From: Haloarcula laminariae
GTDB lineage: Archaea > Halobacteriota > Halobacteria > Halobacteriales > Haloarculaceae
Direction of reading: 5' to 3'
Assembly (NCBI RefSeq): GCF_025457605.1
Contig: NZ_JAMZFY010000001.1
Location: 1,674,001 to 1,738,000 of the forward strand
Length of the DNA stretch: 64,000 nt
Shown: positions 41,426 through 42,891 of the stretch, one piece after another
Numbering within the stretch: the stretch's first letter is position 1
Layout: each line of letters starts with the position of its first letter
The notes under the pieces: model-generated
The model's input: the letters and a program-made list of their open reading frames with translations, nothing else
Told to the model about the DNA's origin: nothing
The model's database searches: none
Translations under genes and position numbers: made by a program

Positions 41426-41653
41426 TTATTGTCCTCCGATGGAGTCGGCTTCGCGGGCCGTCTCGCGGAGCTGGAGGATGTCGCCCTCGCGGACGGGACC
41501 GAGGACGTTCCGGGTGATGATTCGACCCTGGTTTTCGCCCTCGCGGAGTCGGCACTTGACCTGCATGGCCTCGCCGTGCATCCCCGTCTTGCCGACGATC
41601 TCGATGACCTCGGCCGACGTGGCGCCGCTACTTTCGGTCTCTTCAGCACTCAT
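41426..41653 (-). CDS. rps28e: 30S ribosomal protein S28e
   Basis: 75 residues. A small OB-fold protein of the small subunit. The core [54 protein letters not shown] is canonical, ending IGGQ. The start follows the rpl7ae stop by 11 bases. Made in proportion with L7Ae and L24e from the same message. Confidence 0.96.
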
Positions 41654-41664
41654 CTTTGGTCACC

Positions 41665-42027
41665 TCAGCGGAGCTCCTCGACCTTGGCGGCGATGTCCTC
41701 GACGTCGGCCTCGGCCTCACCGGCGTCGGTGATGGCGGCGGCGGCCGAGCCGACTTCGAGCCCGGCGGCGTGGCCGAGGTCGTCCTGCTGCTCGACGAAG
41801 ATGAAGGGGACGCCCTTCTCGTCGGCCAGCTCGGGGATGTGCATGACGATCTCCTCGGGCTGGACGTCCTCGGCGACGAAGACGAGCTCGGCGGAGCCGC
41901 GCTCGACGGCCTTGGTCGTCTCGTTGGTTCCTTTCTTCACTGTGCCCGTGTCTCGTGCGACTTCCAGCGCTTCGAGGGCGTCGTCCTCGAGGTCGGCCGG
42001 AACGTCGAAATCTACGTATACTGGCAT
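41665..42027 (-). CDS. rpl7ae: 50S ribosomal protein L7Ae
   Basis: 120 residues from ATG 42027 ([26 protein letters not shown]). It binds kink-turns in 23S rRNA, box C/D and H/ACA guide RNAs and RNase P. The RNA-binding face [59 protein letters not shown] is intact. The start is chosen because a strong Shine-Dalgarno (GGAGGTGA) ends 8 bases above it. The leader upstream forms a kink-turn-like structure that could let the protein limit its own synthesis. Confidence 0.97.
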
Positions 42028-42151
42028 TTGTGTAGTCACCTCCTGCACGCGGGCTCAGGCTCCCCCGCCGTTCGCGGGAAATCCCGCGGCACGCCCCGCC
42101 GGCGCGCTGGTCCTGAGAAGGCTGGGAGCATCATCAACCCGGTGCAGGCTG
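42028..42151 (-). promoter_or_regulatory. rpl7ae leader RNA with box C/D kink-turn-like element
   Basis: On the minus strand, CCTGCAC (42148-42142) plus CGGG (42141-42138) pair with CCCG (42053-42050) plus GTGCAGG (42048-42042), leaving a bulged C49. Directly inside are box C-like TTGATGA (42137-42131) and box D CTGA (42058-42055), then a second stem GCTCCC (42129-42124)/GGGAGC (42064-42059). This is the layout of a box C/D kink-turn. The outer stem shares two Gs with the Shine-Dalgarno GGAGGTGA (42043-42036). Deviations are a U for the purine of box C and an extra G54. Regulation by L7Ae through leader kink-turns is known in other archaea. Confidence 0.6.
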
Positions 42152-42172
42152 TAATCGTCTGTGTGCCACGGG

Positions 42173-42180
42173 CCCTAAAA
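42173..42180 (-). promoter_or_regulatory. TATA-like box of the rpl7ae cluster
   Basis: TTTTAGGG on the minus strand. Its centre predicts a start near 42151, exactly at the foot of the leader's outer stem, so the message would begin with the kink-turn structure. Confidence 0.45.
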
Positions 42181-42281
42181 GCGCTTTCGAAGCCGAAACC
42201 GCGTGCCAGCCCGCCACACGGGTGGACACCGGTCGACGCGTGGCCCGCACCCTTTACCCACCTGGCCCGCCACAGGCCGCT

Positions 42282-42521
42282 ATGGAGGAACGCGTCGGTC
42301 CGGACGACCGGACTCTCTACATCGACCGCGAGGACGGAGATATCGGCACGAAGGGCCCCTTCTTTGTCGTCTATCTCGACGACGAGCGCGAGCGCCGCTG
42401 GGGGTTCTTCTGTGGCAACTGCGAGACGTTCAACAACGCGATGGACTCGATGGGCCGCATCCGCTGTAACGACTGCAGCAACCTTCGCAAGGCCGAGGAG
42501 TGGGACGCGGCCCACGAGTAA
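42282..42521 (+). CDS. Small zinc-binding haloarchaeal protein (DUF5816-like)
   Basis: 79 residues. Two CxxC pairs (FFCGNCETFNNAMDSMGRIRCNDC) form a zinc ribbon after a strand-rich start (TLYIDREDGDIGTKGPFFVVYLDDERERRWGF). It resembles a haloarchaeal family I recall as DUF5816; function unknown. CCTTTACC about 27 bases above the ATG suggests a leaderless promoter divergent from the rpl7ae one. Confidence 0.72.
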   Translation: MEERVGPDDRTLYIDREDGDIGTKGPFFVVYLDDERERRWGFFCGNCETFNNAMDSMGRIRCNDCSNLRKAEEWDAAHE

Positions 42522-42594: not shown

Positions 42595-42891
42595 ATGGCG
42601 GCCGTTAGCACACCACTAGACGAGCAGGCTCGGTCGATATTCGACGACATCGGGTACACCGTGTCGCGCACCGACGAGGGACTACGAGCGGCACACAAGT
42701 GGCGGGAGGTCGGCGTCACAGTGCTCGAAGACGGGACAGCGCTCCCGGAGTCGGGGGAGATGCACTGCATCGTCACGCGCGCGCCGGAAGCGCCCGACGT
42801 CGGCGACCGGCTCGCGCGGATGGACGTCGGCTACGACTGGGCGGTCATCGGCGTCCGCGAGGACGGCGGCTACGACGTCGTCAGACCGTAG
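42595..42891 (+). CDS. Conserved hypothetical protein
   Basis: 98 residues, soluble, alpha/beta (LDEQARSIFDDIGYTVSRTDEGLRAAHKWREVGVTVL..MHCIVTRAPEAPDVGDRLARMDVGYDWAVIGVREDGGYDVVRP). It looks like a small haloarchaeal family without assigned function. No catalytic motif. It precedes the mechanosensitive-channel gene by 36 bases on the same strand and may share its transcript. Confidence 0.65.
   Translation: MAAVSTPLDEQARSIFDDIGYTVSRTDEGLRAAHKWREVGVTVLEDGTALPESGEMHCIVTRAPEAPDVGDRLARMDVGYDWAVIGVREDGGYDVVRP

Follow-up and report, generated by a model that had tools for sequence, protein, structure and literature searches.

We think it very probable, at roughly four in five and by analogy with relatives, that the rpl7ae leader of haloarchaea is a feedback element of a known kind, through which the ribosomal protein L7Ae would restrain its own synthesis, since a conserved, covarying hairpin with the GA core of a kink-turn (k-turn) adjoins both the L7Ae gene and its Shine-Dalgarno sequence. 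It is from relatives that we infer L7Ae binding and repression at the haloarchaeal leader itself. L7Ae autoregulation through leader k-turns has already been published (Daume 2017; Huang 2019), and so the kind is known; what differs here is that the covarying stem is long and predicted to be pre-folded, that an apical GGA is conserved and that the 5' strand lies outside earlier 50-bp constructs. In the literature searched we found no description of this long haloarchaeal form, the supplement of Daume 2017 (a 121-species alignment, which may well mark the strands) and most subscription papers lying outside that scope.

According to PMC4983044, haloarchaea do not typically use structured leaders for control, and 72 % of the protein-coding transcripts of Hfx. 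volcanii are leaderless; Daume 2017 (PMC5539422) reports high conservation of the l7ae leader for the Sulfolobales only. Both generalisations meet an exception in the present leader, which covaries, is class-wide and belongs to a core ribosomal gene. In addition, it offers a well-delimited RNA whose GA positions are known exactly and can be tested in genetically tractable haloarchaea, and it raises the question of whether L7Ae, in exerting feedback, folds an RNA that was open or bends one that is already folded.

The rpl7ae locus and its leader

The window is a stretch of 64,000 nucleotides from Haloarcula laminariae, and all positions given below count from its first letter. The features discussed here are as follows.

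42181..42189, minus strand: BRE-like element CGAAAGCGC of the rpl7ae promoter
42176..42180, minus strand: TATA box TTTTA, preceding TACAG by 27 nt
42150..42153, minus strand: predicted transcription start region TACA at the hairpin foot, placed by TATA spacing
42138..42148, minus strand: 5' strand of outer stem P1 (C-helix), CCUGCACCGGG
42130..42137, minus strand: k-turn b strand, UUGAUGAU
42120..42129, minus strand: 5' strand of inner stem P2 (NC-helix), GCUCCCAGCC, parsed as the 10 nt after 3b
42111..42114, minus strand: conserved apical AGGA, predicted unpaired in the minimum free energy (MFE) fold
42073..42107, minus strand: variable apical domain, two GC-rich hairpins in the MFE fold (42107-42089 and 42088-42073)
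42059..42069, minus strand: P2 3' strand, GGCGGGGGAGC, from alignment, covariation and tree test
42054..42058, minus strand: k-turn n strand, C-U-G-A-G
42042..42053, minus strand: P1 3' strand, CCCGCGUGCAGG, in which the window has a bulged C at 42049, from sequence, MFE and covariation
42036..42044, minus strand: Shine-Dalgarno sequence AGGAGGUGA, 9 nt
41665..42027, minus strand: coding sequence of rpl7ae for 120 aa, beginning with the ATG at 42027 (Pfam PF01248, E 3e-26; solved-structure match 1s72_F)
41426..41653, minus strand: rps28e, the next gene after rpl7ae (Pfam PF01200, E 8.1e-30)

The identity of the gene is clear: the best solved relative of its product is the 50S L7Ae chain 1s72_F (E 2.2e-68), and it is 95-98 % identical to the L7Ae of several named Haloarcula species. 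By our own count, its residues N35, E36, K39 and R43 correspond to N33, E34, K37 and R41 of A. fulgidus L7Ae, which are named as contact residues in Huang 2019 (PMC6298567). The gap to rps28e is short, and that gene is therefore probably co-transcribed. Upstream of rpl7ae, two divergent genes for DUF5816 and DUF7116 proteins lie on the plus strand at 42222-42521 and 42595-42891.

Read on the minus strand, 42153-42028 is TACAGCCTGCACCGGGTTGATGATGCTCCCAGCC...GGCGGGGGAGCCTGAGCCCGCGTGCAGGAGGTGACTACACAA, followed by the ATG at 42027, and it leads from TACAG into AGGAGGTGA by way of two arms that are complementary to each other. The TGATGA, the CTGA, the outer stem and AGGAGGTGA are indeed where the original prediction, made from the letters alone, had placed them. 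The leader, at about 42151-42028, has an 11-bp outer stem P1 (CCUGCAC-CGGG / CCCG-C-GUGCAGG) and an inner stem P2, separated by an internal loop whose two strands each carry tandem GA; its MFE of -66.7 kcal/mol (z -3.66) was equalled by none of 200 shuffles. The BRE-like element agrees with the haloarchaeal BRE motif CGAAA given in PMC4983044, and in 113 of 127 distinct leaders a TTTTA-type motif precedes TACAG by 27-30 nt, the remaining 14 having variants of CTTTA-, TTAAA- or TTATAA-type in this part of the promoter region. As the promoter box lies about 27 nt upstream, the transcript should start at TACA, the foot of P1, as had been proposed, and on this sequence evidence the predicted start falls upstream of 42138.

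The Shine-Dalgarno sequence is complementary to the 16S 3' end of the same genome, UCACCUCCU, and its first three nucleotides lie inside P1, so that the outer stem does run into the ribosome site, which begins in the last P1 pairs. The arrangement is a general one, with the distance from P1 foot to ATG between 10 and 17 nt in all 127 leaders, GGAGG contiguous with the P1 foot in 88 and a Shine-Dalgarno motif detected in 120, within or adjoining the k-turn hairpin. The same genome also holds a partial 16S rRNA copy at a contig end (G000:C2:116-938), with a full copy on the same contig.

Conservation and covariation across haloarchaea

The comparative set comprised 141 sources: the window, 80 related L7Ae loci (the best 80 of 256) and 60 upstream stretches hand-picked for family spread among the matches listed from a class sample of 292 genomes, in every one of which L7Ae is present (292/292). 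One locus with only 102 nt upstream (L062) was dropped, and the other 140 sources gave 127 distinct leaders once 13 duplicates had been removed. The 43 leaders with an apical part of at most 25 nt form alignment A1, which has 42 distinct rows in the pair counts and from which covariance model R1, a model of the long form only, was built; 43 of the 140 sources found thus contributed to the model and 97 did not.

R1 finds the hairpin upstream of rpl7ae in 140 of the 141 haloarchaeal sources (80/81 and 60/60), the single miss being L062, whose contig ends 102 nt upstream, and in a phylum sample of 246 genomes it matches 42 of the 43 haloarchaeal ones. In its own genome the leader scores 72.5 bits and the next best match 16.5 bits (E 0.43). 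Three sources were recovered as split matches (L075, L129 and L140) and a fourth, L126, at no better than E 2.8e-4; long apical inserts are common to all four. Leader length varies between 87 and 193 nt and the apical part between 12 and 116 nt, while the segments that flank the internal loop are fixed. The invariant columns of A1 are the GG of P1, the UGA of the 5' strand, one G in P2 and the AGCC of the 3' strand.

When P1 and P2 are imposed on A1, 89.5 % of cells pair, and 12 of the 19 pairs (7 of 11 in P1) have changed on both sides among the 42 distinct rows, a count reached by none of 500 shuffles; sliding the partners by 1-3 columns lowers pairing to 38-47 %. For family f4, MAFFT puts the 3' strand of P2 in the wrong place in this alignment, which is why 10-12 of the 42 rows appear unpaired at five P2 positions, and RNAalifold on A1 predicts most of P1 and only three P2 pairs. 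Plain counts of pair changes ignore kinship, and for that reason the changes were also mapped by parsimony onto a coding-sequence tree; the 5' arms and the 3' arms of 80 sequences (the window and 79 of the 80 related loci) were aligned separately and blind to structure. This yielded 30 double compensations in P1, against 0-4 when slid, and 10 in P2, against 0-1. The covariation that had been called for in haloarchaeal rpl7ae leaders is thus there, in 12 of 19 pairs and on the tree. The region is rich in G+C, where stable stems are common, and a fold arising by chance might for this reason be suspected; with 30 tree-mapped compensations against 0-4, and a hairpin in every sampled haloarchaeal family except a single f5 genome, that idea is refuted by covariation and its probability is practically nil.

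P2 combines a near-constant length with changing sequence: its 5' strand is the 10 nt from 3b to the end of a GCC-type block in nearly all leaders, and one base longer in two (L078 and L152). Within 9 nt after this strand a GGA is found in 126 of the 127 leaders, in a role that P2 pairing does not explain. We considered an alternative hairpin in which the apical GGA pairs with the UCC of the P2 5' strand and rejected it, since by inspection L156 keeps GGGA with a P2 strand that has no UCC; the GGA is kept where P2 has changed, and pairing with P2 is therefore not its explanation. This conserved GGA and the P2 sequence CUCCYAGCC go beyond what a k-turn needs and are unexplained by L7Ae binding, and the next gene is rps28e, all of which would suit a hairpin that binds another partner, for example an operon r-protein such as S28e, with the k-turn a merely architectural bend. 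We consider this improbable, given that what is conserved in the internal loop is the motif recognised by the first gene's product and that sister lineages retain the GA core at l7ae without the extra stems.

The kink-turn core

The predicted k-turn core is G A U (L1-L3), with G1b and A2b opposite G2n and A1n. On the b strand of the window, L1-L3 are G A U at 42135-42133, and 1b G, 2b A and 3b U stand at 42132, 42131 and 42130; on the n strand an extra C at 42058 is followed by 3n U at 42057, 2n G at 42056, 1n A at 42055 and -1n G at 42054. The tandem G.A / A.G pairs are thus present across the Kt-b and Kt-n strands, and the loop is flanked by a C-helix (P1) and an NC-helix (P2) that both covary. 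All 127 distinct leaders have the P2-proximal UGA (L3-1b-2b), hence G at 1b and A at 2b, preceded by a purine at L2. Position 1n is A in 127/127, 2n is G in 122/127 and A in 5/127, and -1n is G in 124/127. Only 32 of the 127 have U at 3n, so that a strict box D UGA is absent from most. In family f2 (L130-L135) the box D-like strand reads AAG, not GAG, which accounts for 2n = A in five distinct leaders.

Because the invariant GA is the second of the two, the box C core is AUGAUG, at 42134-42129. The first GA is absent from 18 of the 127 leaders and the first UGA from 23, and the register UUGAUGA, with a U for the purine, was rejected, as those 18 leaders keep the second GA only. The box C/D k-turn that had been proposed at this leader therefore stands as regards its conserved GA core and covarying stems, with its box C register moved three bases further downstream, and neither of the two doubts raised about it persists: AUGAUG has its purine, and the supposedly unpaired G54, which we take to be G 42054, is the G kept in 124 of the 127 leaders, where it fits -1n opposite U. 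Loss of box C and D conservation, which would have counted against the prediction, is not what the leaders display, the UGA and 1n A being kept in 127/127. The GAU before the GA fits a three-nucleotide loop. One further nucleotide stands between GAU and the C-helix in 109/127, and the 18 shorter leaders have exactly three loop nucleotides plus -1b; by inspection, most leaders, those outside family f4, also have an extra nucleotide between 3n and P2.

A full box C/D guide sRNA requires C, D, C' and D' boxes plus a guide stretch. By inspection, a second C'/D' pair is absent from the short-apical leaders, which accordingly do not qualify as guides. A small RNA of box C/D or k-turn type that is cut out of the leader and has its function elsewhere would agree with the box C-like and box D-like sequences and with the short RNAs that PMC5852579 describes from the same intergenic region in Haloferax mediterranei; the apical region nevertheless varies freely, from 12 to 116 nt, and the rpl7ae Shine-Dalgarno sequence is itself part of the hairpin foot, which makes this very improbable indeed. 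Rfam 15 returned no family match to the leader at gathering score, and only three tRNAs in the window, and the leader region searched on its own gave sub-threshold matches only (E 2.9 and 4.8).

How might feedback work?

In the feedback reading, the transcript would start at the foot of the long hairpin, in which P1 (about 11 bp) and P2 flank a box C/D-type k-turn. L7Ae in excess of its rRNA and sRNA sites would bind the k-turn, bend P2 against P1 and lock P1, so that the 30S subunit is kept off and translation of rpl7ae, and probably of rps28e too, falls. Exclusion of the 30S subunit is suggested by the P1 foot, which contains or adjoins the beginning of the Shine-Dalgarno sequence 10-17 nt upstream of the ATG.

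P1 alone is predicted, by folding energies and not by probing, at -14.0 to -24.7 kcal/mol across the 127 leaders (-21.7 in the window), and the last 70 nt of the leaders have a median of -25.9 in haloarchaea against -13.6 in 20 other leaders of the phylum, a gap that is partly base composition. Since P1 is predicted to be stable in every one of the 127, the RNA should be pre-folded, and L7Ae probably meets an already folded RNA and bends it. How such a stem could be switched, given its predicted stability in the absence of protein, is something we can only infer. One possible, if unlikely, answer is a geometric one, in which the duplex stays stable throughout and L7Ae only bends it, bringing the conserved AGGA beside the Shine-Dalgarno sequence. 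The bend would lay P2, near-constant in length and changing in sequence, along P1, which is about one helical turn, and AGGA itself complements the 16S 3' end, so that it might rival the Shine-Dalgarno sequence or act as a standby contact. If true, this would be a second mechanism for L7Ae feedback, different from that of A. fulgidus with its disorder-to-order switch.

A very stable predicted P1 at the extreme 5' end might also do no more than protect the mRNA or be cut by a nuclease, with no protein sensed, and two short RNAs of 27 and 42 nt (HM9_V and HM10_V) are placed by PMC5852579 in the rpl7AE intergenic region of Haloferax mediterranei. A plain stabiliser would have no need of the invariant non-Watson-Crick UGA and A-G loop positions, and we regard such a 5' stabiliser or processing signal as distinctly improbable. 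In the account of PMC5852579, HM9_V and HM10_V lie on opposite strands beside rpl7AE. One of them, we suspect, may be the leader itself. Against feedback by L7Ae itself, which we continue to prefer, weigh the extra loop nucleotide in 109/127 leaders, the extra one that most have between 3n and P2, the A at 2n in five f2 leaders, the predicted stability of P1, given that the published switch calls for a leader that is open until L7Ae binds, the view of PMC4983044 that structured-leader control is atypical of haloarchaea, and one of 43 haloarchaeal genomes (G021) without the long form.

Relation to known leaders and to sister lineages

In Sulfolobus acidocaldarius, L7Ae feedback through a leader k-turn has been demonstrated experimentally (Daume 2017, PMC5539422), and the haloarchaeal leader resembles it in having a k-turn in the 5' UTR, a GA core and an adjoining Shine-Dalgarno sequence. 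The Sulfolobus leader as presented there is, however, a simple short k-turn with the Shine-Dalgarno sequence flanking the bulge, whereas in the haloarchaeal one P1 is a covarying stem of 11 bp, P2 is longer and the apical domain varies. The same paper reports that about 50 bp of archaeal l7ae upstream sequence, that of H. volcanii included, down-regulated reporters in E. coli, lists Kt-b and Kt-n strands for Haloferax volcanii and mentions in a legend a further H. volcanii Kt-b upstream in its alignment. Judging from lengths and spacing, the UGA of haloarchaeal leaders lies more than 60 nt upstream of the ATG and would therefore be missing from any 50-bp construct made from such a leader. The suggestion that haloarchaea have a two-stem form is thus borne out, class-wide; as a kind it is not new, given that Daume 2017 includes the Haloferax volcanii leader.

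The l7ae RNA of A. fulgidus has no structure until L7Ae binds and folds it, which occludes the ribosome site (Huang 2019, PMC6298567). Its UTR k-turn, box C/D-like, shares the GAU loop, G1b A2b, G2n A1n and a Shine-Dalgarno sequence on the C-helix side; it differs in being open until L7Ae folds it, while the haloarchaeal P1 is predicted to be stable without protein. Covariation-supported archaeal r-leaders, including a halobacterial S15 leader, have also been described by Eckert and Weinberg 2020 (PMC7247131), where the legend of Fig. 1 mentions eL7; unlike the present element, no L7Ae leader was noted among the 20 new motifs of its Table 1.

The l7ae leaders of sister lineages in the same phylum (L186-L204) have box C-like UGAUGA and box D-like CUGA-type strands beside the Shine-Dalgarno sequence, as in haloarchaea, but they are compact, mostly CGATGA-x-TGATGA and a short hairpin followed by CUGAAGGAGG or similar. 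R1 matched none of the 20 sources L185-L204, the f5 haloarchaeon L185 included, and a pattern test for the compact form was positive in 14 of the 20. The genome of that haloarchaeon, from the separate family f5 (G021; leader at G021:C4:3273-3552), does not have the long form; its rpl7ae leader is short and carries, by eye, a compact AAUGACGCGC...GCGCGGAACGAGG hairpin, which is possibly the ancestral state. The long form looks like a derived, class-wide elaboration.

Other sites in the genome and the phylum

Archaeal 23S rRNA contains several k-turns. Mimicry of rRNA by the leader was considered and set aside, a crude k-turn pattern scan of the 23S of the same genome having returned no candidates, in a scan that is weak and misses the expected 23S k-turns. 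The longest word common to leader and own 23S is 11 nt, and GGCGGGGGAGC, also 11 nt, occurs exactly in the own 16S, a match that we take as chance. For targets in trans, a search of the same genome gave no second R1 match below E 0.4, and the DNA around the match at E 0.43 (L173), read by itself, offered no lead. Near the nop5/fibrillarin genes (G000 C1 880295-881367) there is no match to R1, which covers the long form only.

Among the 203 non-haloarchaeal genomes of the phylum sample, four have marginal R1 matches (E 4.5e-4 to 2.5e-3). In three of these (G337, G430 and G472) L7Ae lies on another contig, the fourth genome being G410, and we have taken all four as chance and rejected a long form outside haloarchaea; no tRNA was found at these matches. 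Two of them, at G337:C50:56816-56892 and G430:C126:505-581 (L180 and L181), come from genomes of one genus and lie away from L7Ae.
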